DNA of 64,000 bases, taken from contig CP141126.1 of assembly GCA_035236585.1 (NCBI GenBank), forward strand, positions 11,669,001 through 11,733,000. The letters are read 5' to 3'. The notes beneath the pieces were generated by a model that worked only from the letters and a program-made list of their open reading frames with translations, made no database searches and was not told the DNA's origin. Origin of the DNA: Warburgia ugandensis (Eukaryota > Streptophyta > Magnoliopsida > Canellales > Canellaceae). Below are positions 3 through 64,000 of the stretch, piece by piece. The translations under genes and the position numbers were made by a program. The first letter of the stretch is position 1. Each line of letters starts with the position of its first letter.

Positions 3-11605
<11,603 letters not shown>

Positions 11606-37618: not shown

Positions 37619-40600
37619 CAACTCCACCGATGCTGGTCCCAAGCCTGGATGAAAAAGGAGGGTCTTGCACCAGGTGCCACCCAACAAGAAAGAAGTTGAA
37701 GATGATTTTAATTTTGTTTTTTTTTTTGTACTTGCAAATGAATATGCATTTGTATATTCGTTTGTAAGTACGAAGAGAAGATAATGAAAATCATATCCAG
37801 CTTCTTTAAAGTATGATAACCCTAGCATGACATGAATCGAAAACTGATATTCCATCAAGCTAGGGCATCCCCCATAAGTGACATGTTGCATCAAATCCCG
37901 ATGCAGTGAAAAATGGGCAAGGGTTGATAGGGCATTCCCTGAGAAGCGACACGCCACATCAAATCCCGATGTAGTCGAATATGTGCAAGGCTGCTAGAGC
38001 GTCCCCTTAGAAGCAGCGCGCTACATCAGAAACCAGGTGCAATGAAAAGTGGGCATGAGTTCATGCTATCAAGGTCGAGAAGTGCACTGGTAAATAGGCT
38101 ATCTCAAAAGCATAAGATTCGTATCATCACATGGAATATAGGGACATTGACAAGTAAGAGTGGAGTTAGTAGATACTATGAAACGTAGGAGAGTCAACAT
38201 CACTTGTATCCAAGAAACCAAGTGGAAAAGGGCTAAAACTCGAGAAATTGATAGGTATAAACTCTAGTACATAGGAAAGGATAATAACAGCAATGACGTA
38301 GGAATAATAGTAAAAATAAGAATTAAAGGATAATCAAGTGACAGTTTTGGGTAGATATGAAATGAGTCATGCAAGAAATTCCCAACACTGAGAGGATAGT
38401 TATAGGAGCAAACTTAAATGACCATGTAGGAAAAGAAAAGGAAGGATATGATAAGATACATGGAAGGTATGGTATAGGAGAACGAAATGAGATGGAGAAA
38501 ACTATCCTCGATTTTGCTTTAGCATGTAACCTGGCCATTGCAAATACATTCTTTAAGAAGATGGATGAAAACTTAATAACCTTTAAAAGTAGACTCTATA
38601 AAACCCAAATAAACTTTTTTCTACTTACGCATACTGAAAGATCAATGTATAAGGATTGAAAGGTAATGCCCAATGAGAATTTAACCTTACAACATAAGTT
38701 AATATTTATGGATATTTATATTAAAAGATGAAAGAAAAGAAATGAACTTAATAGGTATCCAAAAACTAAGTGGTGGAACTTAAAAGGAGAGAAAATAACC
38801 TCATTCACAAATAAGTTGGTGATAAAAGGAAACTGGAACTTTGAAACAGAAGTAAACACCATGTGGGTTAATATGGCTGGGTGCCGGAAATCCGGTACAT
38901 CATCTGGTGAAAGAACACTGTCAATGTGCTGATTTGAAGATCACATCACGTACTTTCGAAGCCATCCTTCTTGTTCTCTCTCTCCTTGTTACCGAGAACC
39001 CTGTGAGACAACTAGTAACCAAGAGTATTCACCACTAATAAAAAAGGCATGAGTGTGAGAGATGCGTGAGTCCATTAAGAAAGAGACAAAAGATATCTTA
39101 GGAGTATCTAAAGGTAAAAGACAATTATCAAAGGAAATATTGTAGTGGAGTGAAACAATGCAAAAAGTTATAAAGAAAAACGGGTGTGTTCTAAAGCATG
39201 GCAAAAGACTAGAAATAATGAAAATTATAAACAGTATAAGAATACTAAAAAGGTTGCTAAGAGAATAATAAGGGAGGCCAAACTTAAGGCATATAACGAC
39301 CTTTATAGTAGATTAAGATCAAGAAAAGGTGAGAAAGATGTATTTAAACTTGCAAAAATAAGATAACAGAAGGTTAAGGACTTAGACCATGTTAGGTGCA
39401 TTAGAAGTGATGATCAAACAGTACTAGTCAAAGATGCCGAGATCAAACAAAGGTGGAAAACTTACTTTTCAAAATTGTTAAATGGCAATGGCTCTAAGAA
39501 TATAGGGATTGAAAATATTGTAAACCTAAATAACATTGGACATTATAGATATGAACATAGGATTAGAATAGTTGAAGTGAAAGAGGCTTTGAAAAAGATG
39601 AAATCAGAAAAGGCCGTGGGGCCCGATGATATACTAATAGAGGTTGGAAAGCATATGGGAGATACTGGATTAGTTTGGTTGACCAAGTTGTTTAACAAGA
39701 TTATTAAATCAAAGAAAATGCCTGATGAATAGAGAAAAAGCTCTATTGTACCAATTTACAAGAATAAAGGAGACACAGAGCTGCACTAATTATTGGGAGA
39801 TCAAACTTATGAGCCAGACTATGAAACTTTTTAAAAGAGTGATTGAGTAGAGGCTACAGCATGAGATAAGTGTCTCGGAGAACCAATTTAGTTTCATGCT
39901 TGAGAGGTCTACCATGAAAGATATTTTCTTACTAAGACAATTGATAGAAAAATATAGGGAGAGAAGGAAAGACCTCCACATGGTCTTTATTGACTTAGAG
40001 AAACCTTATGATAGAGTCCCTAGAGAGTTAATATGGAGAGTATTGGGGGAGAAAGGGGTTTTGCGGTAGTATATAGACATAGTTAAAGATATGTATGAGG
40101 GAGCAGTAACAAATATTAAGACCACTAGTGGCGAGACCGGTGATTTTCCTGTCACTGTAGGATTGCACCAAGGATTGGCATTGAGCCTATACCTTTTTGC
40201 GTTAGTTATGGATGAGTTAACAAAACATCTGCGCAAGGAGATTCAAATGTGCATGCTATTTGCAGATGGTATAGTCTTAATTGATGAGACAATGGAGGGT
40301 GTAAACATAAAGCTAGAGTTGTGGAGAGAAGCATTAGAATCTACAGGATTTAAAATCAACAAAATTAAGACAGAATATATGGAATGCAATTTTAGCAAGG
40401 AGAGGAGTAGGAGTAGAACACCAATTAAGACTGATAACCCAGAAGTCCTCGTAAAAGACGACTTTCGGTACTTAGGATCAATGATTCATGAGCGAGGAGA
40501 GATTGAGAGGGAGGTTACCTAGAGAATCTAAACAAGTTGGAACAAATGGAGATGTGCATCTGCAGTTCTGTGTGATCAGTGGATGCCACTCAAACTAAAA

Positions 40601-41052
40601 GCAAAATTCTATAGGGTGGCTACAAGGCCAGCCATACTCTATGGATTAGAGTGTTAGGTAGTTAAGGAACATCATGTTCATAGGATGAGCGCCGTGGAAA
40701 TGAGGATGTTGAGATGGATGAGTGGCAAGACAAGAAAGGATAGAATTAGGAATGAAAACATTAGAGGAAACTTAGGGATAGCACAAATGGGTAACAAGAT
40801 GAGAGAGATTAGACTTAGATGGTTTAGACATGTCCAAAGGAGGCCCAAAATGACACCGATTAGGAGTAAGGCAATGCAAGTAGAAGGTTCTAAAGGGCAA
40901 GGGGAAGGCCCAAAAGAACGTGGATAGAAGTGGTGAGAAAAAATTTAAAAACTTTGGGATTAAATGAAGCCATGGTACTTAATAGAGGGGAATGGAGGAA
41001 TCAGATTCATGTGGCCGACCCCTAATTGGGATAAGGTCTTGATGATGACCCA
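37619..41052 (+). mobile_element. RTE-clade LINE, copy C (full length, degenerate)
   Basis: TSD ATCCAGTT at 37611-37618 and 41053-41060. The leader shares GGTCCC AAGCCTGGATGAAAAAGG with copy B. Three 67-68-bp 5' repeats (from about 37880, 37948 and 38015). Endonuclease region 38100-38760 (LNDHVGKEKEGYDKIHG, ITFKSRLYKTQI). Linker 39184-39366, RT about 39470-40530 with the catalytic box mutated to FADG (normally FADD). Best preserved C-terminal region 40685-40927 (MRMLRWMSGKTRKDRIRNE, RWFRHVQRRP). Tail GGTCTTGATGATGA. A 187-bp foreign segment sits at about 38879-39065. Many stops. Confidence 0.92.
38879..39065. other. 187-bp insertion inside LINE C, origin unknown
   Basis: LINE copies A and B run directly from AATATGGC to AGTC-ATTAA, but copy C has about 187 extra bases between. 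No TIR or TSD is obvious. It contains CACCACTAATAAAAAAGGC near its right end. Confidence 0.7.
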
Positions 41053-41684: not shown

Positions 41685-42109
41685 CTGCAGTTCCCCAAAT
41701 GCGAAAGAAAACACATGCACATCATGGCTTGCAACAGAGGAACTCTCTTTTAAGGAAACACTTCTATGCTAAGCATGAGTTTAGTCAAGTGGTTTTGGAT
41801 CTAAATACCTTTTACAGGGTCAATTACAAAAAAGATCCAAACGGACAATGTAATTAACTGATAAGTAAAATGTAACAGAATCCGAGAGGCTGTTTTTTCT
41901 TTTTTTTTCTAGATCCAAAAATCAGGCAAAAGCAACAACTGTTCCAACTTAAAAACAGGCAAGGCACCAAAGAGAAATGATTAGCAAGGGAAGTCATGCT
42001 TAAAGAAAATAAAGCACGATTATCAAGTTAGAAGTCATGCACATGTACTTTTTAACTTCTCTACAAGAGTCAAAAGAAACACAAACAGTAATGCTGCATA
42101 ACTCCAGAC
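41685..42109 (-). other. Pseudogene intron where catalytic exons should be
   Basis: Only 425 bp of non-coding sequence separates the exon ending in VHC|S from the coiled-coil exon. Both intron ends are GT...AG. No trace of the expected DGWDRT segment on either strand in this interval. Confidence 0.75.
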
Positions 42110-44440
42110 CTGCAATGGACCAGCACTGAGGAAGATTCTGAAGCTACTCGTGCAGCAATCCAAGCAGAACCAGCTAGGCCACTCTGAACATGGATTAACC
42201 ACCCACTGTCTCCCAAGGGTTGAAACAGAAACAGACATACTGCTTAAGTTTCCACCTCCCCATGTCCATCCTCCATTTCTCTGTAATTCAAATGACTTAA
42301 GACAGTTACAATCCATCATTGCAGCCTGAGAACAAAAGAACCCGCCGAACTCTAAAGCGACAGTATATGTGAGTAAACTACACAACAATCCACCAGTCAT
42401 TTTCTTACACAGCTATATTCAAAGGGCATAGAATTTGGAATGTTCTGTAACAATAAAGTATTCTATATGTTGTGTGGATGCATACATGTATATAAGAGGA
42501 AGGCATCACCATACCCCCCAAATCTTGCATTCAAAAATCATGATAACAGTTAACTTGTTTTGATAAAATAATAAATATTATCTTGAGCTGCAATAGTCAA
42601 ATGTAAGGGATGTGGGAAGCTAGCCAAGAATTATAACATTCCATCTGAAGATGTGGTAACATGTGTATCTCGATAGTCTCAGTGTTGAGCAAGACTATCC
42701 CTCATGGCATGAAAATTGTCAATCCCAAAGAAGAGAACCTAAATAGCAAGTCAAGAAAATACAGAGTTGTATCATTGACAAAAAATTGAGATTTACTTAA
42801 TCCCACTGCAACTGCAAAGAGTCATACAAAACTCAGACTGGAAATAATTAGAAGATGACTCTGAACCACCTCCCACTGCTCCATTTGGCTAAGGCACTCT
42901 TTCTAGGCCTTGCATCAGCTATATAAAGTTTCCTGCAGAAAACATCACTTCTAGAACCATTGCAAAATACAAGCATAACAAGATCACAAAACGCATAGCT
43001 AAACTTCTGTCAATGAATCATAGAATTGGACAACTCATTGAACAAAAGAATGAAACAAGAATGAAAATAGTTAAAAGGCTATTGAAAAACAGTTTACAGC
43101 GTAATGCAGATCTGACAGCGCAAACTAAAAACCTGACAAGGTAAAATCATTAGTGGTTACAGAGTTCAGCAATTATAATAGCCAGGACCAGGCACACAAG
43201 AAGAAATTCTGAACTGCACTCATTGGACATGGCATCCAAAATAGAAGATCTTAAAATAGTATGATGTCATATTGAAGAAGATACAAGTTTAATTTCTTCT
43301 AGAATCGTGCTTACAAAAGCAGGAACTCAAATAGAACCAGCAAATCAGGGAAGGCGGAGAAAGCAATAAATTTCAAGAATGTGTTGCTATTTGGATTGCC
43401 AAGATGAAGTCTAAAAGCAGGATTAGAAGTCAGGTGCTCTGACAGAATACCTTGGGCACAAAATAGGAAAGTGCATGTTTACATATTATTGTTAAGGTTA
43501 ACTTCACCGTTCTTCATGGAGAAAGATTCAGACAATGAAATACACCAGGCTACTCAGATAAGTAGAGATCCATGGAGATTGTGCTGTTTATTTAACAAGG
43601 TAGATGTTTGCAAGTGAATGACTGTTTTTTCAAGAACATCTTCTGGGATGCCATGAATTGACTGATAGCCGGTAAAATTTGGGCAAAACTATGAGATTTT
43701 TAAGGAGGGCAACTCTATCCCTGATGCAATTTTTGTTGTTTCCTCTTTTGTTTAAAAAAATCTGGTAACGTTCCCTTTACAATACAAGGAAAAAGAAAAA
43801 GCCAGCACAGATGTGCTGCCCATATTGTAAACTAAAACTATCCCATGACTACTTATCTGATTATTGAGATGTACTGCACAAAAAGAGAAGAAAAAAAAAG
43901 AAAGAGGCAACTAAAACAGCAATGAAAACATACCTCCGTGATCCTTTCTCACCAGCAGTTTGAGTGCAAAGGGCAGCGACAAGCTTTTCATCAGCATGAC
44001 TGCAGCACATTTACAGGAGAGTATTGTAAGCAATCAAGACAAGATAAAATTGCAGAGCTCTTATCACTCTGGAACGTCCATTAATGTTCTAATAGGTCAT
44101 GATACTCTATCATCATGCTCAAAAATGACAAAGTAATAATAGAAAAATAAATAGAGGTCCAACATCTCTCAACTGCTAACCCAGATGTTTGCAACAGATT
44201 ACCTCCTCGTATTCATCATGAGACCAACTAAAGGTTGAGATGAACAAGCAAGCACCACTCCATTGCCTACAACAAGAACAAGATTCGAGTTAAATCCAGT
44301 TCCTAAACCTTAGTTGGAAGGAGCCAATATGCAGCAAGGCCAGAAAGAATGACATTTAACAAAAACCTGGATGACACCATGAAACTACAGGTAATCAGTA
44401 CCTTGCACAGAAGGAGGAAGCCTGTACTACTTCTTCATCA

Positions 44441-44598
44441 ATGGTAGAAGCAAGCCAGAAGGTATCTCTTAAGGGTAGTAGACACTATCACCAATAGCTA
44501 AGAGTTCAAATGAATGAATAATAACAAAGAAAGCTACAAGCTTCTGCCAATCTCTAAACACATCCATACACAAAATTATAGACATATCGAAAAAATAT
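44441..44598 (-). other. Broken intron, possible fossil U12-type AT-AC intron
   Basis: The exon ends ...ATCAG at 44599 and the next coding begins TGATGAAG at 44440. The intron starts ATATTTTTTC and ends ..TACCAT instead of GT..AG. ATATCCTTT is the U12 AT-AC donor and AC the acceptor; C-to-T changes alone would convert them to what is seen. A branch-like CCTTAAG lies about 28 nt from the acceptor, farther than usual. Confidence 0.4.
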
Positions 44599-45243
44599 CT
44601 GATGCACTTAGGGACAATCAACCAGAAGGGATAGGTTAAACACATTGTGTAGTTGGAATTCACAGCACTTATTCGCCACCAACAATTTGACACTGGAAAT
44701 GATCCATCTTCTATGGAACTAGTTGACACATGATAGGAGCTATGCCCGATTGAATTTAGAGGGTCCACATGTAAATGTATAAAGATCCCATAAATTTGAT
44801 GGCCTAGTAAACCGCAACAATGCATCAAACACAGCTCGCGTCTGCAAGGATTGCAAGATACCCACACGGCTATTAGAATATATCCAAGCATAACGACTAC
44901 ATCATGAGTTATGTAGTAACCAGAACGATAGTAATTACTTAAAACATAAAAGGAATTAAAATTTACTTCATAATGTTCCACCGGAGAACCATAACAATAA
45001 CCGATAACTATTATTTTAGTAAATGAGAATTACGATTATCTGCAAAAGCTACCTTGGATAAAAACTACTTCGTAGTTAAAACTACTTCATAAGAAGAACC
45101 TCTCTAGGCAGGGAAGAGAGTTTGCAAATGCTGCAGGGTAAAAGGATAGCAACTGCAGAAGAGACTCAACCGAAAGTTAGCCTCACCTTGCTGACCATTA
45201 TGCGGTAGCCTAAGGGTGCTTAGGGTTTAAACTATAAGTAGAG

Positions 45244-45590
45244 TGTTGGGGATTTTCGTCCCCGCCCAAGATCATACACACAAAAAAAACGCAGAGTTTT
45301 AACGTGGTTCGGCCAATAAGCCTACGTCCACGGGAGAGAATGATTTCACTATGAAACTGGGGTTTTATAGAGAGGTATACACGGGGGTTTTACAGAGGAA
45401 TGGGGTTCTTCACTTGCCCTCTTGGTATCCCTATTTATAGGGAATTTTCGGGTCTGATTTTCAACCCGTTTTACACAAAGTCACTGGCGGTGGCTGGCTG
45501 AGCGCCGCCGTTGAAGCCGGCAATGCACCGACTGACATCGCGCCCGCCACCGTTGAATACGGCGGCCGCCCGAAATGGGTCTGACCAACA
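45244..45590 (-). repeat. 3' LTR of Copia element
   Basis: TGTTGG...CCAACA, 347 bp. TATAAATA (minus strand) at 45432-45439. Compared with the 5' LTR there are three substitutions in the first 240 bp, a scrambled GC-rich patch of about 50 bp near 45490-45540, and two differences at the end. Flanked on the left by TAGAG (45239-45243). Confidence 0.95.
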
Positions 45591-45604
45591 AATCTCCCCT
45601 CCAG
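45591..45604 (-). other. Polypurine tract of Copia
   Basis: On the minus strand CTGGAGGGGAGATT directly precedes the 3' LTR (TGTTGG). Expected plus-strand priming site. Confidence 0.7.
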
Positions 45605-45629
45605 GGCCCATTAACCGAAGGAGGTTTCT

Positions 45630-48600
45630 TCACGTATGGACTTTGTGCGTAAGCCCATCCCGACCAATTCTCTGCAACTCTCGAACTTGCTCCGAGGTAA
45701 TGCTTTTGTCATCATATCTGAACTATTATCGTCAGTATGAATCTTCTCAAGCTCTAACGACTTCGAGTCCAAAATATCACGTATCCAATGATACCGAACA
45801 TCAATGTGCTTTGACCTTCCATGAAAAGTAGAATTCTTGCTAAGGTGTATAAAGCACTTTGACCGTCGCAAAATAACGCATACCTCTTCGCATAAAGCCA
45901 AGTTCGTTCACGAGCTTCTTCATCCACAATAACTCTTGCATGCTTCGTCACAAAGAATAAACTCGGCCTACCGTCGTAGATAAGGCAAACACACTTCGTA
46001 GCTTTGATTGCCATGACACGGCTCCCCCAAAAGAAAGTAATCAAGTAGCCCGAAGTAGACTTCCTCGTGTCAATATCACCACCATATCCGAATCGGTGTA
46101 GCCCTCGAGCACGGGCTTGCCGCTGCCAAATCCCAAACACAACTTAGAAGTACCACGTAGATATCTCAATATCCACTTCATCGCATTCCAATGTTCTTTT
46201 CTGGATTTGATAGAAAACGGCTCATCGTACCAACCGCATATGTAATGTCTCGGTCTAGTGCATACCATGGCATACATAAGACTCGCCAACAGCATAAGGA
46301 ACATCTTGCATGTATTCCTTCTCAAAGATCACTTGTTGGAACTTGATTCTTACTAAGCTTAAAATGAGTAGCAAAAGGTGTACTAACCACTTTAGCTTTA
46401 TCCATGTGAAATCGTTGAAGTACCTTTTCTATGTACTTCTCCGAGACAGCCCATAACCTCTTATTCTTCCCGTCACGAATGATAGAAATCCCGAGAATCT
46501 GTCCGCGGATCCTAAGTCTTTCATAGCAAAGACTTTGTTCACCTCCTTCTTTAATCGATCGATCCTTGAAGAGCTTCTTCCAACAATAAGCATATTGTCG
46601 ACATAGAGTAGTAAGATGATGAAATCATCTTCTCGAGAATCTCGCACAAACACACAGTTGATCCGAAGTAGTCTTTCGATAACCCCGTTGGGTCATGAAC
46701 CGCCGAACTTCTGTACCACCTGCCCGGGAGCCTCGCTTTAAGCCATACGTACTCTTCTTCGCCTTGCGTACATACTTCTCTTTGCCTTTAAGCAACAAAC
46801 CCTTACGGCTGCTCCATATATATCTCCTCCTCTAAGTCACCATGGAGGAACGCCGTGTCTTCACATCCATCCGCTCAACCTCCGCATCAAGGTTTGAGGC
46901 CAAACCCAATACAACTCGGATTGAAGACATTTTAACAACGGGAGAAAATATCTCCTCGAAATCAACACCTTTTCTTTGACCAAAGCCTTTCACGACAAGT
47001 CTAGCTTTGTATCGTGGTTGTGAAGTGTCACCTTCGTACTTCACCCCGTATATCCACCGATTCTTCAAAGCTTGTCCCGCCAGTAATCTTACCAGCCTCA
47101 AAAGTGTGGTTGTCTTGTAAGGATTTCATCTCATCCTTCATAGCTGCAATCCACTCGCATTCTCTTCACTTTCAACCGCCTCTGTGTAGCTCTCGTGTTC
47201 TCCCCGTCGTGAGGAGTACGGACTCATCTGATGAATATCGAGTGGAGGGTAGACGATCTCTCGAACTCCGTCTCAATGAAACTGCCGGTTCCTCGCAGGA
47301 ACCTCTGCCGAATATCATCGCCTCGGCCGACGAAACATCCATGTCTTCAGCAGCTTCATGTTCTCCCTCAGCCTGATTATCTTGAACATCAACTGGAGCA
47401 CCACCATGGTCATTGGTGCCATCTACACTTGGCGTATGTGAAACAGGAACTGGATCTAAATCTATCAGAGTATCAGAACTTTGAGTTTCTGATACTTTGG
47501 CTTTGTCGATGTGTTCAATGGTTTGGTCTTCCATAAAGACCACATCACGACTTCTAACCAACTTCTTTGCAACAGGATCATATAGCCTGTAACCAAACTC
47601 ATCCTGCCCATAGCTGATGAAAATGCATTGTTTGGTCTTTTCCATACCATAGCCTGTCAGGAACATCTGCATTCAAGGCAACTATTGGAGATAGGTTAAT
47701 AACATAGGCTGCAGTGTATAGCGCCTCACCCCAGAAGGAACCAGGCAGCTTTGCGAAAGCAAGCATCTGACCCTCTCCATCAATGTCCTGTTCATCCTTT
47801 CTGCTAAACCATTTAGCTGAGGAGTCTTCGGAGGAGTTCTTTGATGTCTGATCCCTTGCTTCTTACAATAAGCATCGAAAGGTCCACAATACTCGCCACC
47901 GTTGTCTATGCGAATGCATTTCAGCTTCTTCCCCGTTTGCCGCTCAACAGACGCTTGAAATTCTTTAAACTTGTCAAGCACCTGATCCTTAGTTTTCAAA
48001 ACATAGACCCAGAGTTTCTTGGAATAATCATCAATAAATGTGACAAAATATAATGCACCACCAAATGTGCGTACCTTCATAGGACCGCATACATCTGAAT
48101 GTACCAATTCAAGCACGCCTGGCTTTACTCGGAAGAATGATGGCTTTTGAAGGAAACTCGTTGTCGTTCCCTAAGAAGACAATGAGCACATTTGCTCACC
48201 TTTGTAGCTTTGAGCCCTGAAAGCAAATTCTTCTTGACTAGACAACCTAGTCCTTTCTCACTCATGTGACTGAGCCGCCTGTGCCACAACTCTGAAGAAC
48301 CAGCAATATCAACTGCGTTCACAGAGTTACTAGGAATCGAAGCTTGCATCACATACAAGCTGGGATGATTTCTTCCCTACGGCAACCACAAGTGCTCCCT
48401 TAGAGAGCTTCCACCGTCCCATCGCAAAGGTACTACAGCATCCATCATCATCAAGCTTTCCTGGGCCGATATTAAGTTCAACCTGGATATCCGTACATGC
48501 CTAACGTCCTTGAGAATCAACCTTGTTCCGTTGTTGGTGTCCAAACAGACGGATCCGATACCAAGAACCTTTCGACAGCCCATCGTTACCCATCTTCAAC

Positions 48601-49568
48601 ACTCCAAAGTCACCAGGGGGTGTACGAGGTGAAAAACTCCTCTTCGAGGTAACATGAAAAGAAGCACCACTGCCAACAACCCATCCAATCTCATTGGAGG
48701 CCAGGTTGATTTCATTTTCATCACTGCACCATGACAAGGCCTGAAGCAGTGGCATTACACGATCATTCCCCTCATCATTTCTTCTCTCCTCGCTGCATTT
48801 TCTCGTTTTGTTCTCGCTTTCCACTCAGTAACAACGCCTTTTAATGTGACCCTTCTTGCCACAATAATTGCATTCCGCATTCTTGTATCCGGGACTTAGA
48901 TTTACTCGCTTCTATTATTCTTCTCTGTCCTTTGATCTTGCTTCTCCCTCGATTTTCTCGAGATCAAAATCTCGAGGCTTACCGTGATGTGGTGACAACT
49001 TGAGCTCGTTGCCTCATTTCTTCATTTAGAACCGCGCTTCTCGCATTCCCATGTCACAACACCACCTGGAGTGCACTAGCTAGAGAAACACGAAAATTTT
49101 CCCATGAGTCGTGCAAAGTATTTAAAAGCCATAAACCCATGATATCATCGTCAAACCTCGACAACATCGGATAGCTTGCTTGAAAGCATCCCAGGTCAAC
49201 TACGTTCAAGTGGCTCTGGAATAGAACTCCTTCCTCAGATTCTCAAGTGCATCGCTTGATTAAGTAGGAATAACTTATTATTCCCGGTTCTCGACACGTA
49301 CAAGGTTTCTAATTTGATCCATAGAGTTCAAAGATGTATTTCATTTTGAATATGATTCAAAACATTATCTTCTACCCATTGTCGAATAAAACCACATACC
49401 GTTTCGTGTTCAAAAGCCCACTCTTCTTCTGACTTATCCTCCGGTTTTGAGTAAAGAAAAAAACAGTAGATGTAATTTCTTCACAAAAAGAAGATCTTTC
49501 ATTTTTCCCTTCCACTTGTGATAGTTAGTACCATTTAAGCAAATCATTTTGCTCATGTTTGCCTCCAT
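45630..49568 (-). pseudogene. Copia gag-pol remnant
   Basis: Order on the minus strand: gag from ATG at 49568 (LNGTNYHKWKGKMKDLLF) with a CCHC zinc knuckle CNYCGKKGHIKRRC at about 48835-48875. Protease 48550-48710, where the active-site D-S-G reads GSGAS (Asp lost). HHCC pre-integrase 48125-48358 (LWHRRLSHMS). Integrase core 47682-48116 (HSDVCGP, RIDNGGEY, LNGLAERMNR). RT 46430-47100, with the YVDD box as YVDN. RNase H/3' end 45611-46325 (DDNSSDMMTKALP). Stops and frameshifts separate nearly every block; not active. Confidence 0.9.
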
Positions 49569-49717
49569 AAGTAAAGAAAGAGTACTTACAGCAATTTCAG
49601 GAGAAAATCTTACAAATATGAGAACACCACTGCGTTTGCCAAGAACTGGTCTATCCCCCTTGAAAACCTGCCAAAAATAGGTCTACTCCAGTCGAATCAC
49701 TGTTGCAACTCGTTACT

Positions 49718-52688
49718 TGTAATATCCTTAATTTTAAAGATAAAAATAGGAAATTATTAAATAAATTAAAATAAAAATTTATGGATGAAATTCTTTCCTG
49801 AAAACATAATAATTAGAAATTGCTCGTCGATACGAATCCAACGCCACCAAGAACGTGAAAAACGGAGCTCAAACGAGGGAGTTATGAGCCGTCAAAGTTG
49901 GAAGGGCAATTTGGTCATTTGGTAGAGACGTATTAGACAGGGGTCCAAATTGATACTGGCACCCCCGTCTTCCACACGTCTCTACCAGTGCCGGAAAAAT
50001 CGCCGGAGAGACGTGGAAAGAGGCGTGTGGGAAGAGTTTCTCTTCCCAAGACTCCAAAACCACTATATCATACGCTCCTGCAGGAGCCAAAACACTCCAC
50101 TTCGAGCGTTTTCCATGAATGCTACGCAAAACCCTAGCCGTAAAAACTTGAATTTTCCGGCGAGTGGAGCCCGGCAACACGAGCAACCCCGACTGTGCAC
50201 AAGGTAAGCCTCAAATCAGGTGTTTTTCTGTATTTATTAATTAGAAAATTAATTAGGGAAAGTATTTAAAAATTAGGAAAAAATCGATTTTTAGGAACTT
50301 TGTGCACGCTACCGTTGGAGCGTGATTTCAATGGATCAAACCTAGTCCGTTTGAAAATCGCACCGTCCAACTAGTGCACAAGAGACCCCAAGAGCATACC
50401 CTTTAAATTTGGGAGTGATCCAACGGTGGATTTCTCTTAGAAAACCCAAAAACCAAGACCTAGGGAGGTTTTTAGAACTTGGGAAAAATCATTTAAAAAC
50501 CATGGTTTTTGGGAAAATTAGTGCAAAAGGAGGGCATAAATGGATTCTAGAGAGAATTGCTGAAGAAAATGGCCCAAAAATCACGCAAAACGGAGCTCGT
50601 AGCTCAGCCGAGGCGACCAGGAATCCGGCCGTCTCTCCCGCGGCCGTCAACGCAGCCGCGCCTCGGTGCTGACGCCATGACGCACTTGGTGACGCGCGAG
50701 GGACGACGTCGCCGTCCGCACGCGTGCGCCGCGGCCGCGCGCGTGTGGGGCACGCGACGGCTTGTCGCGGTGGGACCGGACGCGCGCGTCCCGGCGACCG
50801 TGACGCACGCGCGCGTGCCGTTCGGCGCCCGCGTCTGGCTGCGTGCGTCTTCGTGCGCCAGATACGCCCGGTGTAAACCGGCGGCGAAGGGTGCCGCCGG
50901 TTTAAACCACCTTATGGTGGTCCGGCGAGGCCCATTTTTAGCGTAGTTTCTACTAAAACTTGATTTTTGGGAGCTAGAGGTCCAAATCACGATCAGGAAG
51001 AGGCGTTGTGACCGTATTGACGACGCGGACCTAGTTTTAACTTAAAACTTAGAAATGACCACTTTTTATTTAGAAAAATTTTAAAATAGTGATGTGACAT
51101 GTACAGTGGTGCACTTGAATATACCAATTAAAGGGAGTTATTAGCAAGCTAGTGATCTCACACCGAGGTAGGTGACGACAACTAATGTTTTGCCTTGATT
51201 TTAAACCATGTTTAAACAATGGCATCATGTGTGATTGTGTTTTAAATTGCGATTTTTATTTACCATGGATTTCATGCGACATTGCGTACGTGATGGTTAT
51301 TCCAAATTGAATTCTTTACCGAATAAACCTATTTAAACTGCTTTTACAAGCATGATGTTAATTAGTTATGCTTAATTAGAGATTTATTACTTATTATATA
51401 TATAGAAAATGCATGGATTTACATGGAAATGAGTATGAGGCTTAGTAAATTGGTCCTTTTATAAAGGCTAACCCCGTGATGAGGGGCATGTCTTGGGGAT
51501 TTCAAGCTATAAGTGCTCTTGAGTTTTAGTATATACATATGATTTCCGTGTTTTATATTTGATGACGGGTGCTCTCGCACTGGGCGTCATGCTTTAGGAG
51601 GGATGTGGCCGGGCCACCCACCTTCCGAGATTATGATGTGATGAGTTTGTGATATGATAGACACTGCCCATAGATGGCATTCGGTAGGGGTTTGGTAACA
51701 TGGATAGTCCACACTACCTATTCGAGCCTTTCCATGGGGATGGACGTTAAGTCTCCCGTTATGGGTGTCGACGGAGAGCGGCGGTGGTTGATACCCATGG
51801 AGGGTTGCCATCAAAGATGATGACCCATATTCTTGTTATGTGTGCATGTATGATGAGCATGGTTATAGATGGTATGCCTAGGTGTGACGACACTCAGAGG
51901 TTGACTATGTGTACTCCTGATCAGGGATGTTAGTGCGATGTGGTGGGACCCATTACCTTAGGGTGCCCTTATTCTTGTTGTATGCTCCATGTTATTGATT
52001 CATGTCATGTTTTAACTCAGTGAACTTCATGTTTTAGCATTTGGAATAAATTGGCATTTATTTGAACATGGCATTATGATATCACTATTTCCATAAATGT
52101 TAGACTTTTCATCAATGTCGTTTCATTATTTCTTGCATTTATTACATTAATTGTCTATGTACCTACACAAGCGATAGCTTCGAGGTGCTTTGTTTTGCAA
52201 TGCCTTAGATCTCGAGCGACACCGTGAAAGGAAAAGCTGCTGATAAACCTTGAGAGCCGTAAAGACCATTTTTCTATGTTGTTAGACAAAGATGATGTGA
52301 GTCAATAAACAGGATTATCATTTGGATTTTATTATGGACTGCATACTTTATATTTAGATGTGATTTAGATGTTTGGACATATGTTGGACATTTATATGGG
52401 ATGTTATGATGGATAGACCCTGGGCCATATTATTATTGTCTTTTGAACGTTTATTTGATTTAAAATAAAGGCGCCTATTTATTTGACGTTGATTTATACG
52501 CGGATTATTTATTTATGTTTAAATTACATATACGCCATTTTGAGAAAGGAAAAATTAACACCCGGAGTTTTAAGATAGGTTTAGTAAAATGTTAAATAAA
52601 TCTTTTCTCATGGGATCCCAAAATGCTCTTATTTAAAATGCCATTATTATGAGAAAAAAAAATTGTCTTAAAGACTCGGGGTGTTACA
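49718..52688. mobile_element. Large solo LTR nested in Copia leader
   Basis: 2971 bp, begins TGTAATATCC and ends GGGTGTTACA (mutated inverse ends TG..CA), with perfect 5-bp TSD TTACT at 49713-49717 and 52689-52693. No coding, no PBS/PPT and no second LTR, so it is most likely a solo LTR of a Ty3-type element with long LTRs (inference). It interrupts the Copia leader just upstream of gag. The GC-rich stretch 50590-50900 is dense in CpG; ORFs there (for example 50557-50946 and 50604-50990) are composition artefacts. Confidence 0.88.
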
Positions 52689-52693
52689 TTACT

Positions 52694-53060
52694 ATTGCAA
52701 CTCAGCTACGGTTGCACTCGAACTGTTGCAACCGTCTAAGATCGTTGCAAATACGCCACCGTTTCAACTTAGCTACCGTGGCAAATGCGCTACTATTTGC
52801 ACTCATTACAACTCTATACTTGTTGTAACTCCGTATTTGTTGAAACTCGAATCATGGAACCCGCACACTGCATCAGGCCAACTCGCACCGTAGTAGTCCG
52901 TAGGACAGTAGCCGACAGTAATGATGATGCTTTACTGTAGAACATGATAACGTGATTTTCACTGTAGCAGCAATGATGATTATTGTAGCAACTGTAGCAG
53001 GAATAGTTTTCTTCCTCCTCTCGACCGGCTGAATCAGAAATCCGTCAGCCTTCTGTTTCA
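52694..53060 (-). repeat. Copia leader with degenerate GTTGCAAC-type repeats
   Basis: TTGCAAC, GTTGCAC, GTTGCAAC, TTGCAAATACGC and GTTGTAACTC-like words recur every 15-30 bp from 52694 to 52850, followed by CTGTAGCA words at 52935-53000. Non-coding leader between the 5' LTR and gag. Confidence 0.6.
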
Positions 53061-53072
53061 CGGCAGAACCGA

Positions 53073-53084
53073 GCTCTGATACCA
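53073..53084 (-). other. Copia primer binding site (tRNA-iMet)
   Basis: On the minus strand TGGTATCAGAGC, two bases inside the 5' LTR, complementary to the 3' end of plant initiator tRNA-Met. Confidence 0.92.
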
Positions 53085-53086
53085 CT

Positions 53087-53438
53087 TGTTGGGGATTTTC
53101 GTCCCCGCCCAAGATCATACACACACAAAAAACGCAGAGTTTTAACGTGGTTCGGCCAATAAGCCTACGTCCATGGGAGAGAATGATTTCACTATGAAAC
53201 TGGGGTTTTACAGAGAGGTATACACGGGGGTTTTACAGAGGAATGGGGTTCTTCACTTGCCCTCTTGGTATCCCTATTTATAGGGAATTTTCGGGTCTGA
53301 TTTTCAACCCGTTTTACACAAAGTCACTGGCGGTGGCCGCCGGCGGCGCCCGCCGCTGTTGAAGTCAGCAGTCGGCACCGACTACTGCGCCCGCCACCGT
53401 TGAATACGGCGGCCGCCTGAAATGGGTCTGGACCAACA
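53087..53438 (-). repeat. 5' LTR of Copia element
   Basis: 352 bp, TGTTGG...CCAACA. TATAAATA on the minus strand at 53275-53282. Right flank TAGAG (53439-53443). Confidence 0.95.
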
Positions 53439-54780: not shown

Positions 54781-54830
54781 CTTCTTAGTTCGGGGTCTAA
54801 ACCCAAAAACAATAATCCGCAAGTCTTTAC

Positions 54831-55545: not shown

Positions 55546-56099
55546 TCAATTATATGCTTTATGTGTTAATATTTAGCAGCAAAAGTTTTTGGCAGATTTT
55601 TATTCTTTAGAAGCAATTTGTCCACCAGTAACAATGCACTTTGCCATCTCAAAGTCCTACATTTCCCATGTACTCCTCTATATTCATTCAAATACAGTTG
55701 TGCCACCAAAATTTTCTTTTCGTTAAAGATCCCCCACCCCTTTTCCTGAGCCTACATCTCTGTATTCACTGATCATGACACTCTTTTTCATAATTCCCAA
55801 AGTACCTTCCTATGTAGTCGCAGGCGCAAGGGGCGACCTACGCCCAGAGGGACTAGTTGCATGACTAGGTATCAAGATGCAAAATTAAGGATTTTAAATA
55901 TTAAAAAAATCAGAATATATCTAAAAAATTGTAAAAACAAATCCAAAAAATAGAAAAACATAGAAATATAAAGATATAAATAAATACTTGTCAAATGAGT
56001 GAAATGAAATTCTTAAGTAATATATCAACATGTCAACAACAATAACCTATAGTTAAACCAAACAAACAATAACCTATAGTTAAACCAAACAATTAGACA
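55546..56099. other. Flank of the hAT transposase remnant
   Basis: Contains a GC-rich island near 55819-55875 (TAGTCGCAGGCGCAAGGGGC, GACCTACGCCC) in AT-rich DNA, a candidate transposon end, but no partner end was found. Direct repeat ACAATAACCTATAGTTAAACC near 56040 and 56066. Confidence 0.4.
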
Positions 56100-58817
56100 T
56101 AATTAAGTTCAAAAACATACAAATATAATGGTAGTGATCTCGATGCTACTCCCTCAATCCCTTGTGGCCTCAGCATTATCGCCACTATCTTCCTGTAAAT
56201 CTAATAACAATAAATAATTAAACAATAGTTACATAAATAAAGTGAAGTAAATGTTAGAGTTAACTACTAAGACTTAAGAGTCATCTTCATATACCTCTTC
56301 TTGATCAGGAAAATCAATATTGTCATCAGAATCATCTCCCTGAGAAATATAGACATCCTCCTCCTCAATCTCCTCATCGTCCTGCTCTTCTCCAACATCC
56401 TCACGTGGTTCTCAATGAGTTTGAGATTGAGAAATGCAGCTCCCCCTTTGCCCCCTCTCCTATCTTAGGTATTGCCTAGAAGATAGAGCATCATCTTCAC
56501 TTGATCCTTCAGCGAGCTCAACATCTAACCAAATGAAGTCATCACCTGGATGCACCAGATCATCTCATACATCTTCTTGAACAATCCACTCATCACTTTT
56601 GTCAACCTGTCGTAAAAGAATAGGATCTGTATACATTTGCATTTTCAAACGATCCTCATGTCTATGACGAAGGCGTTGATTGTATTGAATGTATGCTAGA
56701 TCGTTCAATTTCTTGGAGTGCAGCTTATTCCTCGTCTTAGTGTGGATCTGAAAAGAAAAAATACATATAAATTTAGAATATAATAAATGTATACTAAATA
56801 ACTAATAAGTACTAAATCTTAATATTTAAGTAGCTTATATTCTCAAAGACACTCCAATTATGCTCCCAAGGAGATGCGCTGCATATCTGAGAGAGGACCC
56901 TAATGGCGAATGTCTGAAGATAGAGGCTTCAGCCCCAAAGTTTCATCACTCACTCCACAAGTTGAAGAAAATTAAAGTTAGAAAAATAAACAAAATTAGA
57001 ATATTATAAAATAAAATTTAGAAGTTAAAACTTAAAATATAAAACAACATAAAACACTTACAAGGGGCTAGAGTTTTTCTCTTGCATATTACTAAGTCAT
57101 TGCCAAACAAGCCTCTAGCATATCTGTAAATAGATATCTCATCTACCACCATGTCAGCCTCCTCTCCATCATATAGCCTACTAATGGCATGCATTAGACC
57201 ATTCTTAACATCATTGTTGCACTCAATTTCAATGTCATGGTCTTAGTAGAAAGATGGGTTGAGCTAATATCCCGCTGCCTGCAAAGGCTGGTGAAGCTGA
57301 GAACTCCATCTACTGTTTATAATCCCCCAAATATGAGTGGCCTGACGCTCAGCCCCTGCTAAATTGGCTTGAATCTTTTCTTTGGCCCTGGCTATAGCCT
57401 CAAAGATATATCCCATCACCGACTTCTCCTCACTGTCCACCACCCTCTAAACCTCTACAAGCGGAGCCATGATCTTCAAACAAAAGAGGACATGGTTCCA
57501 AAAGCTGGTACGGGACACAATTTTTTCAACTCTTTTTCCTTCAGGCCTTTTCAACCATTTACTGTTCATCCACTCTAAACAGCAGAACATTGCCCTCAAC
57601 TCTGTCTTCAAATTGCGTATGCTTTCTAGGCTCAAGAAATTGGTGGCAAAGGGCGTCACTATAGGTCTGACCAAATCTCTTCTTTTTTTTGTAAATCTTC
57701 TCATAAGATTAAGGACATGTGTGTGGCTGTACATAAAAACCGTCATCTCGCTAGCTTCTACCACAGTTTTAATTTGCCTATGTCCTCTAACATCAAATCA
57801 ATGCAATGAGCTGCATAAGGGATCCAATATAAATGTGGCATCCTCACCATCAACTCCCTTTCTGCAGCCACGTAGTTGGAGGCATTGTTAGTTATGACCT
57901 AAAATACAAAAAAAGGTAAAATTAAATAGGATGAATTGCATTATAAACAAGTTAAAATAATTTAAAAATTATAAATATAAAATTAAACAATTACCTAAAC
58001 TACACTGTTCTCTCCAACTTCATCAATCACCTTCTTTAGCATGTCAAGTATTAAGTTTGCACTCTTGACATGGGCAAACCCATCAAGAGATTTTTAAAAA
58101 AATGTCCTAGTTGGACAGTTCACTAAAAAGTTGACAAGGGTGTGACCCTTGCCATCAGTCCACCAATCCAACATGATGGAGCACCCATACTTATAAAAGC
58201 ATAATAGAGCACTCTTGCTGTCAATGTCAACTTAAGACTTGAAAGCAATATGCAATAATAGTGAACACATACCTAATCCAGTTAGCTTTACACTACTGTA
58301 TGTACTCTTTTGTCTTCTCTACTTGCTTTTGAAAAAAACTCACCCTCAACTCGTGATACGAGGGTGCCTTGAAACCTTAGACATATAAGTTTATGAGATG
58401 TAAAGATTAGGTAAAAGCCTAAAATAAGTATTAAACTATTTATTATTAAAAATATAAGATAAATACCTGGACCATGTTGTGCAGCTATCTCTAACATGAT
58501 CTAAAAGGAATGGTTACGAGCAACATTAAACGCAATACTATATTCATAATACCAAGAGGCAATGTAATCGCATGCTCTTCTCCTAAACTCCTTCTTATAT
58601 GCTCTGTTCATTGTCATCTGCTGCATGGGTGCTTTCCCCTTACCCTGGCCCCAAGGTTGGGAGCAAATAGACAATCAATAGGCCCCTTTGTTGTTTGTTG
58701 CGTGTGTGCCTTTCCCTTGTGCTTCTTGCTTCCAATAGAAATGCCACCAGTCCTAGCACTATCAATCTCCTCCACCTCACCATCATCATCGTGCATGCTA
58801 AATAAATTCTTTGGCTT
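56100..58817 (-). pseudogene. hAT-superfamily transposase (DUF659 type), left arm of palindrome
   Basis: The minus-strand ATG is at 63071, on the far side of a 4.24-kb insertion that enters after codon 3. Then an acidic segment (DDDGEVEEIDSARTGG), a frameshift, a DYIASWYYEYSIAFNVA segment, an intron, the DUF659 region about 57830-58330 (CSIMLDWWTDGKGHTLVNFL, DEVGENSV), NNASNYVAAE and YAAHCIDLMLEDIGKL near 57800-57900. Then 57447-57764 (one open frame), the C-terminal dimerisation motif AIRVLSQICSASPWEHNWSV at 56831-56912, and an acidic tail to 56100. Several stops and frameshifts (for example TGA/TAG near 58250 and 58090). Transposases of this group cut and paste DNA with TIRs and 8-bp TSDs; this one is dead as a protein. 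Confidence 0.85.
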
Positions 58818-59107
58818 AGGGGTGGCAATTCGGGTTGGCGGGTCGTGTTTGTGGCAACACGGACACGACACAATTAGAGTTATGGGTCGACATGAACATG
58901 ACACTATTAATAGTCATGTCAAAAACCTATGACTCGTACACGACCCGGTTCTTAAAAAAATAACACGACACGACCTGTGTAACACGATTAATTGACTGAG
59001 TTGTGTTGGATACACGACACGACATGAAACGACTCAATTTCCCTATTACGACTTAGTAAAAAAACTGCTCCCAAGTGAATGGAGCCAAACCAACCACAAA
59101 ACATATG

Positions 59108-59345
59108 ACGGTTATTTTACAACCGTCCTATAAAACACATAACATATAGGACGGTTGTGAAATAACCGTCCTATATGTTATGTTTTATAGGACGGTTATG
59201 TCATAACCGTCTTATATGTTATGTTTTATAGGACGGTTAGTGCATAACCGTCCTATATTGTCTAAATATAGGACAGTTATGCACTAACCATCCTATTTTT
59301 ACATAAGAATATAGGACGGTTAAGGACTAACCATCCTATTTTACA
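59108..59345. repeat. Palindrome array 1: six GACGGTT...AACCGTC hairpins
   Basis: Six units of about 27 bp, each TAGGACGGTT-(3 to 7 nt)-AACCGTCCTA or a slight variant, 40-45 bp apart. Neighbouring units also pair with each other (AACCGTCCTATA against TATAGGACGGTT). Located about 290 bp from the left TIR. Confidence 0.92.
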
Positions 59346-59685
59346 CATATGGATATGGTTTATTAGTACTTTACCAATCTGTGAGTGTGACTATGATGTG
59401 TCAGACTTCCAGTGACCAGTCTGCTTGTGCGGGCAAACGGCCTAGCCTTAGCGCCGGCCTGCCTGACAGGGACAGATAGTTTTCTTTCCTCCAATTCTAA
59501 ACTAGCAAGTGACAACTGGAGTTAATGAAACTTACACTTCAATCATTTGTCAAATATTTTGAGTTCTTGATGTTAGATCCGACGAATGGGCCCCCCTTGT
59601 AGTGGCGCGAAAACAAAATGAAAACTGAAAACATAAAGGTTTAACTAATTAATAATTATCTAAGTCTACTAAGTCAATCTAGTCT

Positions 59686-61232
59686 AAGGCAATTGTTTTG
59701 TCTTTTTGTATGTAAGTAAGCCCAATTCCCAAATCCAATTATCCAATTGAATTTGAAGTCTTATGCTAAAGCTAAGCTGCTAAAGCGCCCTAGCCTAGCT
59801 GGTGGTTGTTTGCTATAAGTTATAAACTAAGACTTAGTTACACGTACACACTATCTCTAATTTTCTTATCAACCATTTTAAGATTAGCTACACATTGTCA
59901 GTTACAAACTTACAAGTTACACTTAGTAGAAAATTAGTTAACCAAGTTTTGTAACTTGTACAAGTACAAGTGAAGTGAGAGACTAACTAACTGTCATATA
60001 TTGTAGAAAATTATAAATACTAATGATTTTCTTATGTTAATTTCACATGTCATCACCAATTGATCTAATATATCTCTTTTTCATCAAATTCATGAATATC
60101 ATCTATCTAACTTATATAACTCATCTAACTCCTAATTGATGATAATAGATTAGGAATAACTCATTCATCCATGATCCATCATTCATGCAGAGTAAAATTT
60201 AGTAACTCCCTTAATAATATCATTCACCACGTGTTTTTTCTCTCATGATTATTATTCATTTTACCATCAATGCCACTTATTTTTAGTTTTCACTATAGAG
60301 TATAGACCACAATCCATAATTAATTTTAGTTTCACCAAAGTTATCATATCAATATCCTTCTAATTCTCTCTTGATAAGCTTTTATGTTAATTCAACACAT
60401 AACTCCTATTCTCTGTTCTCATTTTCACCTCACATAATAAGTTAATTATATAGCTAATAACTATTCCCTTCCTATACTCATTATCCACCAATGAGATAAT
60501 TACATAACTCTTTCTATACTAATTCTCAAGGCAATTGTTTTGTCTTTTTGTATGTAAGTAAGCCCAAATCCAATTATCCAATTGAATTAGAAGTCTTAAG
60601 CTAAAGCCCCTGCCCTGGTCGTTGTTTGCTATAACTATAAGTTATAACCTAAGACTTAGCTACACCTATACACTGTCTCTAATTTTCTTATCAAATATTT
60701 TAAGATTAGCTACACATTGTCAGTTACAAACTTACAAGTCACACTTAGTACAAAATTAGTTAACCAAGTTTTGTAACTTGTACAAGTACAAGTGAAGTGA
60801 GAGACTAACTAACTGTCATATATTGTATAAAATTATAAATGCTAATGATTTTCTTATGTTAATTTCACATGTCATCACCTATTGATCTAATATATCTCTT
60901 TTTAATCAAATTCATGAATATCATGTATCCAACTCATATAAGTCAATATTTGTTTCTCATTTCTAACTCCCAATTGATGATAATAGATTAGGAATAACTC
61001 ATTCATTCATGATCCATTGATCCATCATTCATGTAGAGTAAAATTTAGTAACTCCCTTAGCAATATCATTCAACATTTGTATTAATTCAACACATAACTC
61101 CTATTCTCTGATCTCATTCTCACCTCACCTAATGAGTTAATTACATAACTAATAACTATTCCCTTCGGACCCTTCCTATACTCATTATCCACTAATGAGA
61201 TAATTACACAATTCTTTCTATACTCATTCTCA
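59686..61232. repeat. Tandem duplication, period about 843 bp
   Basis: Copy 1 59686-60528, copy 2 60529 to about 61232. Both start AAGGCAATTGTTTTGTC and end TATACT-ATTCTCAA. Copy 2 lacks about 150 bp (the segment around 60230-60380 of copy 1). Similarity is high, about nine in ten bases by eye. Confidence 0.88.
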
Positions 61233-61680
61233 ACTCTTAAGCTACTGAGTTAATTACATAACTGTTTCTATTCTCATTCAGTCATTCTTACCTAATGAGT
61301 TAATTACATGACTCTTTCTTTACTTATCCTCAGCAACTTTTGAATTGAGTATGAGTTACTTACATAACTTTGCTTTTTTAAGCTGATCCTCAACTGAGAT
61401 CAGATGAGTTAAATACATAACACTTACTTTACTCATCCTCAACCTCAACAACTATTGAATTGAGTATGATAATATGAGTTACTTACATAACTTTGTTTTT
61501 AAGCTGATACTCAACTGAGATGAGTTAATTACATATATGCTCTGTCTTTTTAAGCTCATCCTTAAAGAAATTAAGATGAGTTAATTACATAACTCTTTCT
61601 TTACTCTATACTTAATAACTATTTTTATTTAAGCACATCCTCAACTAAGATTAATTAAATACATAACTCTTATAGCTTAT
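61233..61680. repeat. Degenerate minisatellite, ATGAGTTAATTACATAACT core
   Basis: The core GAGTTAATTACATAACTCTTTCTTTACTCATCCTC recurs (in variants) at about 61250, 61300, 61350, 61405, 61480, 61525 and 61580, alternating with AAGCTGATCCTCAACTGAGAT. Period about 50-60 bp. Confidence 0.75.
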
Positions 61681-61835
61681 ACGACGGTTATGCAACATGT
61701 CAACAACCGTCTTATACCTTTCTAATAAACAAAATAACCATCCTATATAACTTATAGGACGGTTATAAAAAAACGTCATATATTTCATTATATATATTAT
61801 AGGACGGTTATTTAAAAACCGTCCTATATTGTTCT
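61678..61835. repeat. Palindrome array 2
   Basis: Three diverged units of the same ACGGTT/AACCGTC hairpin (near 61680, 61760 and 61800), internal to the hAT element. Confidence 0.8.
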
Positions 61836-61917
61836 ATATATCATTTTTCACCTCGATCAACCCTAATTTCAAATTTTCAATCTTCCAGCGGTCCAAACTA
61901 CTGAGAAAGTGAAAATG

Positions 61918-62230
61918 ACCATTCCTCTTCGATCTTTCACAGATCTAAGCAAAATAAGGTATGTATTTATGATTTTTACAATCTGTATACAGTTCTATAA
62001 AAAAACATAAAAACCAGTACCCTTTTTTTCAATTTTTTTGTTTTTTGTTAACTATTTTCCATAGATCTTGATGGGTTTTAGTCTGAGAAGGTGAAAACAA
62101 CCATTCCTCTTCGATCTTTCACATATTTAAGCAAAAAAAGGTATGTATTTACAAATTTTATAATCTTTATTTTTTTTTCAATTTTTTTGTTTTTTGTTAA
62201 CTATTTTCCATAGATCTTGATGGGTTTTAG
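61918..62230 (+). repeat. 182-bp tandem duplication carrying an exon-like start and splice donor
   Basis: ACCATTCCTCTTCGATCTTT at 61918 and 62100, each followed by AAGCAAA then AAG|GTATGTATTTA, a good donor site. ATG at 61915 opens a short frame (MTIPLRSFTDLSKIR) in copy 1. It may be the decayed first exon of a parent element. Confidence 0.6.
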
Positions 62231-62644
62231 TTCTATGTGTATGAGAAACATTCCATTTGAGTTTTATACTTCTTTGCTCTAGATTTGAATTTGTTTTTAG
62301 GTTTTTTACTGTTTTTTTGAAAAAATCAGTTACGAAAATTTTATAAAAAAAAAGTCATTGTTTTTTCGTATTTCTTCATTGAAAAGTATTTCTATCCACA
62401 TATAGAGCTTTCCCATGTTGTGTATTCATGTGTGATAATGTTTTCATCTCTCTCTTTTTTTTGTAATTTAGTTTTTTTTTTAATTTTTCCAAAAAAATAA
62501 GTTACGAAAATTAGGAAAAAATTGTTCTTTTTTATATTTATTAGTTAATACCTATTCTTATCCACATATATAGCTTACTCATGCTTGAATCTTCATGTAT
62601 TAATGATTTTTAGCTAATTTTTAGCATTTAATCTAATTTTTAGT

Positions 62645-62855
62645 AATATAGGACGGTTCCTGAATAACCGTCTTATATTACTCATGTAATATAGGACGGT
62701 TCTTGAATAACCATCTTATATTGCTAGTAATATAGGACGGTTATTCAGGAACCGTCCTATATAACTAGCAATATAGGATGGTTCTTCAGGAACCGCCCTA
62801 TATTACATGAGTAATATAAGACGGTTCCTCAAGAACCGTCCTATATTTTCAACCA
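62645..62855. repeat. Palindrome array 3: five hairpins arranged as a larger palindrome
   Basis: Units TATAGGACGGTTCCTGAATAACC (variants) twice, then their reverse complement GGTTATTCAGGAACCGTCC, then two more. CATGTAATATAGG at 62680 mirrors CCTATATTACATG at 62797. Located about 200 bp from the right TIR. Confidence 0.9.
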
Positions 62856-63064
62856 TTCCATAGGTTAGAATCATGTCAAAGTGATGAGTAAATAGGTCGC
62901 ACGTCAAACAGGTCGACACAACGGGTCAAATTGATTGACTCGAACACGACACGATTTTTGGCGTGTCACCCGAAAATGACACAAACACGATAAGACTCGA
63001 CCCAAACCCGCTAAATTCGTGTCGGGTTCGTGTCGTGTCATATTTTGCCGCCCCTACTTTGGCT

Positions 63065-64000
63065 TCTCCATCTTCTTTATTATTCTCTCTCTATTCTCTT
63101 TCTTCTCCTTTAATTCATTCATATAATCTAATATCTTCTTAGAAATGTTAAGAGTGACAAGAGAGCATTTTTTTGCATTTCTAAATATTCCACCGTTGAA
63201 AGAACATTTGACGGATAGTCATAAAAATGCAAAAAAATGCTCTCTTGTCACTCCTAACATTTCTAAGAAGATATTAGATTATGTGAATGAATTAAAGAAG
63301 AAGAAAGAGAATAATAAAGGAGATGGAGATGCGAGAGAATTTATTTAGCTTGCACGATGATGATGACGAGGTGGAGGAGATTGATAGTGCTAGGACTGGT
63401 GGCATTTCCATTGGAAGCAAGAAGCACAAGGGAAAGGCACCCATGCAACAAACAACAAAGGGGCCTATTGACTGTCTATTTGCTCCCAACCCTGAGGTCA
63501 GGGTAAGGGGAAAGCACCCATGCAGCAAACGACAATGAACAAAGCATATAGGGAGTTTAAGACAAGAGCATGCAATTATATCGCCTCGTGACACTATGAA
63601 CATAGCATTGCGTTCAATGCTCTCGTAGCCATTCCTTTTAGACCATGTCAGAGGCAGTTGCAGAACATGGTCCAGGTATATATCTTATATTTTTAGTAAT
63701 AAATAGTTTAATACTTATTTTAGCCTTTTACCTAATCTTCAAAAGCAAGTACAAAAGACAAAAGAGTACATACAGCAGTGTAAAGCTAACTGGATTAGGT
63801 ATGTCTTCACTATTATTGCATATTCCTTTCAAGTCTCAAGTTGACACTTATAGCAAGAGTGCTCTATTATGCTTTTATAGGTATAGGTACTCCATCATGT
63901 CGGATTGGTGGACTGATGGCAAGGGTCGCACCCTTGTCAACTTTCTAGTGAATTGTCCAACTGGGATAGTTTTTCTGAAATCTCTTGATGGGTCCGCATG
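63065..64000. repeat. Centre and right arm of large transposase palindrome
   Basis: 63161-63180 is the exact reverse complement of 63225-63244. Centre spacer 63181-63224 (44 bp). The left arm continues 63180 to 63065, then (across the hAT insertion) 58817 down to at least 58069. The right arm is 63225-64000 and runs off the window. The right arm lacks about 75 bp present at about 58320-58400. The arms are diverged (roughly nine in ten identical by eye). Confidence 0.92.
63323..64000 (+). pseudogene. hAT transposase 5' part, right arm of palindrome
   Basis: ATG at 63323 in MEMRENLFSLHDDDDEVEEI, then SARTGGISIGSKKHKGKAPM, a frameshift near 63500 and ACNYIA continuing in another frame. An intron-like gap follows, then MSDWWTDGKGRTLVNFLVNC (DUF659) at about 63896-63958. 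It mirrors the minus-strand copy. 3' part outside the window; at least one frameshift. Confidence 0.85.

Follow-up and report, generated by a model that had tools for sequence, protein, structure and literature searches.

A head-to-head hAT/DUF659 palindrome in Warburgia ugandensis, probably a decayed sister pair of transposon copies that is now inert

Introduction

The locus described here is a palindrome of two hAT transposase (DUF659) gene copies at the right end of a 64,000-nucleotide stretch of the Warburgia ugandensis genome, and its closest described counterparts come from maize and rice. According to the relevant parts of PMC3440606, maize Mu killer (Muk) duplicates part of mudrA in inverted orientation, with about 1.3 kb in each arm and TIRA at either end; the same parts place the start of its antisense transcripts inside Muk and dispute a read-through model. 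Sections of PMC2563033 describe Muk as a perfect 2.4-kb hairpin that gives small interfering RNAs (siRNAs). For rice osa-MIR815b/c and osa-MIR1879, passages of PMC3086885 report a stem-loop derived from adjacent opposite copies of one transposon, with small RNAs mapped to it. Finally, alternative and sister-chromatid transposition of maize Ac/Ds, as described in parts of PMC8225341, leaves inverted hAT structures with intact ends and with target-site duplications (TSDs) that do not flank a simple insertion. In the literature that we searched, we found no description of the palindrome locus on contig CP141126.1.

The Warburgia palindrome is another instance of this known kind, the inverted transposon pair. 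It shares with Muk, as far as the cited parts of those papers go, a partial transposase gene duplicated in inverted orientation, identical element ends facing outward on either side (here the 3' end), a breakpoint inside the gene, and a position near or within host transcription units. Muk alone combines a perfect hairpin, mudrA-adjacent TIRA ends, an origin in an active line and demonstrated silencing (sections of PMC3440606 and PMC2563033), whereas the elements here are hATs joined with their 3' ends outward, the 3-kb arms are 6.6% diverged and interrupted, and their source was probably dead. The same build of adjacent opposite copies links the locus to the rice stem-loops, but its arms are 3 kb long and, unlike the rice cases as presented in those passages of PMC3086885, it is known from sequence alone. 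Intact hAT ends without TSDs around a simple insertion recall the Ac/Ds structures, from which, on the cited parts of PMC8225341, it differs in that the junction at its centre is of deletion type and falls inside the element. We consider it most probable, at roughly 0.72, that the locus is a decayed sister pair of hAT (DUF659) copies that arose by two head-to-head insertions and a central deletion, then aged, and is now inert. The locus can be read as the history of an inverted transposon pair, from empty site and two targets through mirror-like central deletion to decay and a near-identical tract between the arms, and such a history helps tell live silencing triggers from relics among plant long inverted repeats.

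Results and discussion

Anatomy of the palindrome

We analyzed positions 11669001-11733000 of contig CP141126.1 (G000:C1:11669001-11733000, hereafter the window; assembly GCA_035236585.1, 1.12 Gb in 14 contigs) and took about 20 kb of further sequence beyond position 64,000 (L009, L010), where "extended" coordinates continue the window numbering. An earlier note on this DNA had proposed head-to-head copies of a DUF659 gene arranged as a Mu killer-type silencing locus. The inverted repeat is genuine: its longest piece gives a blastn E-value of 0.0, and the open reading frame (ORF) of the right arm matches DUF659 (PF04937, E 1.3e-11, 44.9 bits; cut-off 34.7). The left arm, with its gene on the minus strand, runs from 63183 to 55810 and has an outer part (55810-58816), which is the 3' portion of a hAT/DUF659 element and reaches precisely to the 3' end of that element (CTATGTAGTC...), at 55810, and an inner part (63057-63183) that leads up to the present centre. 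The right arm, with its gene on the plus strand, fills 63222-64000 and continues to extended 66252, the same element 3' end, so that pairing carried past 64,000 ends opposite 55810 and the palindrome is about four times longer than the portion visible inside the window. Within the window the right arm measures 779 bp and the left, with an insertion removed, about 866 bp, agreeing with the earlier figures of at least 776 and about 865 bp; in full they measure 3031 bp and, without that 4240-bp insertion, 3134 bp, or about 3 kb each.

Aligned over their whole length, the arms differ at 197 of 3001 sites (6.6%; 93.4% identity), a Kimura two-parameter (K2P) distance of 0.069, with a transition/transversion ratio of 3.1 and 15 gap openings. 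Coding is disrupted in both arms. Pairing capacity is nevertheless kept, as the earlier note had claimed along with dead coding: 45 perfect runs of at least 21 bp sum to 1739 of the 3001 aligned sites, and duplex energies lie between -1.56 and -1.87 kcal/mol per nt in all four segments computed, against about a fifth of this for shuffled partners (five shuffles each). The centre, which the note had placed at 63181-63224 (44 bp), does exist, but its present unpaired limits are 63184-63221 (38 bp), with the inversion point at 63195/63196. Between TAGA repeats the left arm has lost 30 bp that are present in all 23 other family copies, which makes the centre asymmetric and increases its apparent width; the right arm carries a 71-bp deletion. 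Among 40 places scored from 554 candidates in the genome, no other place holds both arms of this junction.

The left arm alone contains a later hAT-type insertion of 4240 bp (58817-63056; termini TAGGGGTGGCAA and TTGCCGCCCCTA), flanked by a perfect 8-bp TSD with copies of CTTTGGCT at 58809-58816 and 63057-63064, and here the note's 4.2-kb hAT insertion was recovered as described. Near both of its ends, at 62645-62847 and 59100-59340, lie tandem palindromes of AGGACGGTT units, one pair of which has 98-bp arms, a 7-bp loop and 92% complementarity. Tandem repeats of about 235 bp at extended 73453-75098 (L009/L010) are partly akin to the insertion's end at 58817-58991.

Two sister arms of a high-copy family

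Both arms belong to a high-copy hAT/DUF659 family with element ends CTATGTAGTC...GACTACATAG. Two genome searches, one of them with 742 first-look candidates, gave 35 loci besides the window's own, which reduced to 23 distinct copies. The element's 5' end was recognized 1.3-1.5 kb upstream of the position of the centre in 16 of the 23; 3' regions were taken for 11 copies, of which seven have a 3' end-like motif, six of these together with a 5' end. In five of the six two-ended copies the flanks match at 7 or 8 of 8 positions, indicating an 8-bp TSD, and the sixth (L014) has no match; with the DUF659 domain and short terminal inverted repeats, the family thus displays the traits of the hAT superfamily. 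Against this reference, both outer ends of the palindrome are the family's 3' end with no base missing, whereas neither arm has the element's 5' portion of about 1.4 kb. The breakpoints are 16 bp apart in the element and fall in a stretch that we take to be a BED-type zinc finger, although Pfam gave no hit there.

When the first 1.5 kb of the arms is placed in a tree with all 23 other copies, the two arms group as sisters (support 100/99), which disfavors unrelated insertions. The tree is otherwise star-like: the end branches of most other copies measure about 0.05-0.08, those of L021, L008, L027 and L034 are longer, and three rows from a cluster on contig C6 are shorter. The C6 cluster (81.77-83.15 Mb) comprises four copies with a common upstream flank (L022, L028-L030), which appear to be segmental duplicates and not recent insertions; outside it, none of the 23 copies is young.

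For comparison of the arms we built a majority sequence from 18 copies, leaving out L021 and L008, which have long branches, and the near-duplicates L028-L030. The arms have in common a 1-bp deletion and several base changes that occur in none of the 18 other copies, as well as a stop (TTTCAG to TTTTAG) found in three of them. Because the 1-bp deletion is common to both arms, their source copy was probably already dead by frameshift, its frame being read from the majority sequence.

At 56097-56494 (minus strand), outside the region used for the tree, 398 bp of the left arm have a single mismatch to extended 65586-65983 in the right arm, and none of 20,000 shuffles gave an equal tract. Seven of the 11 other copies are comparable over part of this tract and are 82-91% identical there. 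We infer that gene conversion acted between the arms well after their formation.

Formation in an intron of a duplicated host gene

The ORF at 44469-45029 (minus strand), alone among the ten in our Pfam search, matches myotubularin (PF06602, E 7.2e-7), and a genome search for the myotubularin-like family gave six matches, four on contig C3 and two in the palindrome region. The degenerate gene to which the latter belong lies on the minus strand at 41876-45069 and 53442-71568 (extended), with a better-preserved duplicate on C3 at about 82.65 Mb; the C1/C3 pair would be a trace of a genome or segment duplication. Two exons, found by motif and then supported by C3 colinearity, stand on either side of the palindrome: one (..KDLRIIVFGFRPRTKK) at 54781-54830 (minus strand; limits from GT/AG edges), downstream of it in the sense of the gene, and a preceding one (..RTPSS*LLQVIG) near extended 69225-69300. 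From their GT/AG edges and from plant myotubularin sequence we take them to be neighboring exons, and because they bracket the palindrome, it reads as lying in an intron of this gene. In the four exon pieces compared, the copy around the palindrome contains a stop and, set beside C3, has 1 bp inserted and 47 bp deleted, so it is probably a pseudogene.

The flanks bear on how the palindrome arose. The octamers outside its left end (GTACCTTC, 55802-55809) and right end (ATCACATG, extended 66253-66260) agree at only three of eight letters; there is no common TSD around the palindrome, and we therefore rejected a single TSD-flanked insertion. On C3, the paralogous region contains an empty site in which both flanks are colinear, about 106 bp lie between them, and each octamer stands beside its own flank. 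Because the octamers are unlike and the flanks are about 106 bp apart in C3, these data suggest two insertions some 100 bp from each other. Four flank segments differ from C3 by a K2P of 0.17-0.22 against 0.069 for the arms, and by this rough clock the arms would be younger than the C1/C3 duplication.

We therefore favor the decayed sister pair, for which the following course would account for the data. A copy already dead by the 1-bp frameshift would have sat in, or jumped into, the intron of the myotubularin-like gene, and a sister copy would have inserted some 100 bp from it, facing the other way, much like a local hop. Next, both 5' halves in the middle would have been deleted at near-mirror positions together with the intervening DNA, as expected from hairpin or cruciform pairing of the two copies; the mirror-like breakpoints suggest that the deletion used such pairing. 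Later ageing would have brought the 30-bp deletion and the 4.24-kb hAT insertion on the left, the 71-bp deletion on the right, and one gene-conversion exchange between the arms.

The best-surviving competitor, though an unlikely one, is a single fold-back event: aberrant transposition or break repair would have turned one element into a palindrome that sits as a single insertion, about 106 bp of flank having disappeared at the same time. Sister arms, their confinement to the element and the 16-bp offset at the centre would all follow from such an event. It fits poorly with the missing TSD beside element ends that are both intact to the base, and with flanks that differ and stand about 106 bp apart in the C3 region, since the deletion would have had to stop exactly at an element end.

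Is the locus a silencing trigger?

Long pairing is kept, and as the locus is intronic, a host transcript could cross its centre: transcription of the myotubularin-like intron could make an antisense-then-sense hairpin cleavable by Dicer-like enzymes, in which case silencing would be incidental. A working Mu killer-type locus would go further: intron transcription would yield a long hairpin RNA, and siRNAs cut from it would silence the hAT/DUF659 family in trans. The host gene offers a possible promoter, a 398-bp tract is nearly the same in both arms, 32% and 22% of the arms' 24-mers exactly match some other sampled copy, and stop-free DUF659 stretches would provide possible targets. The 24-mer matches are nothing special, however, because single copies range from 10 to 38%. 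Nor did we see an excess of C-to-T type changes of the kind left by methylation: at CG, CHG and CHH sites the values are 12, 19 and 5% in the right arm and 22, 25 and 7% in the left, in the range of single copies. Divergence between the arms amounts to 6.6%, their pairing is broken by the 4.24-kb insertion and the 71-bp gap, the 5' end of the element is gone, the host gene copy is damaged, and end branches of about 0.05 or more outside the same-flank C6 cluster mean that no young target was sampled. We regard a working trigger as improbable.

The head-to-head geometry, dead coding, later insertion and pairing that the earlier note had likened to Mu killer thus stand, but the likeness is partial, because only the 3' part of the element is present, the source was probably frameshifted, both silencing proxies are ordinary, and in place of a near-perfect uninterrupted hairpin there are arms of 93.4% identity with a 71-bp gap and a 4240-bp insertion. 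The locus is probably inert today, given the stop, 1-bp insertion and 47-bp deletion of the host copy and the lack of excess methylation-type changes. A live trigger, if true, would be of wider interest; the sequence does not suggest one. Slightly less credible still is a natural intronic hairpin. On this reading a myotubularin-like pre-mRNA would carry a 3-kb antisense-sense hAT palindrome, kept partly identical by gene conversion between the arms, and would supply 24-nt RNAs that target the hAT/DUF659 family; the palindrome might also have contributed to silencing of the host copy in which it lies, the C3 duplicate being better preserved.

Points against a decayed sister pair

Several observations weigh against the decayed sister pair. 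Of 1985 DUF659 candidates in the genome, 150 were scored and gave 263 matches, some of them stop-free; two such stretches lie at places of the palindrome's own family (C6:81833332 and C13:16732697), leaving room for a live relative or target. Two of the myotubularin matches on C3 contain internal stops, which may be introns or real damage, and the roughly 106 bp between the flanks there could have been inserted into the C3 copy. A closer relative may exist, since the tree holds 23 distinct copies against 742 first-look candidates. Over 259 bp (63736-63994) the right arm is closer to two other copies (93%) than to the left arm (91%), and the sisterhood of the arms could partly reflect older gene conversion.

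This last segment, the high copy number of the family and the differing flank octamers would also suit a chance head-to-head insertion of two family members from different lineages. Sister arms with a private 1-bp deletion in common speak against that account, unless an old gene conversion caused both, and we give it very little weight. Fold-back chimeras do yield inverted repeats, but an assembly artefact from a fold-back read is ruled out for practical purposes by the 6.6% divergence, the insertion in one arm only, the different flanks and the colinear flanks in the C3 copy.

Neighboring features

Within the span of the host gene lies a Copia-like long terminal repeat (LTR) retrotransposon on the minus strand (45244-53438), with 14 differences over 344 sites between its repeats (45244-45590, 53087-53438); TAGAG flanks it on both sides, and it is absent from the colinear C3 copy, where about 75 bp lie between. 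A fragment resembling a long interspersed nuclear element (LINE) sits at extended 66510-67069, about 260 bp outside the right arm, and related non-LTR copies, LINE-like by ORF reading, occur at 5223-8209, 13105-16054 and 37665-41048. Searches of the window with Rfam at gathering thresholds and with ARAGORN gave no match. At 12528-12745 the window also contains two tandem copies of a 109-bp stretch that are 100% identical.

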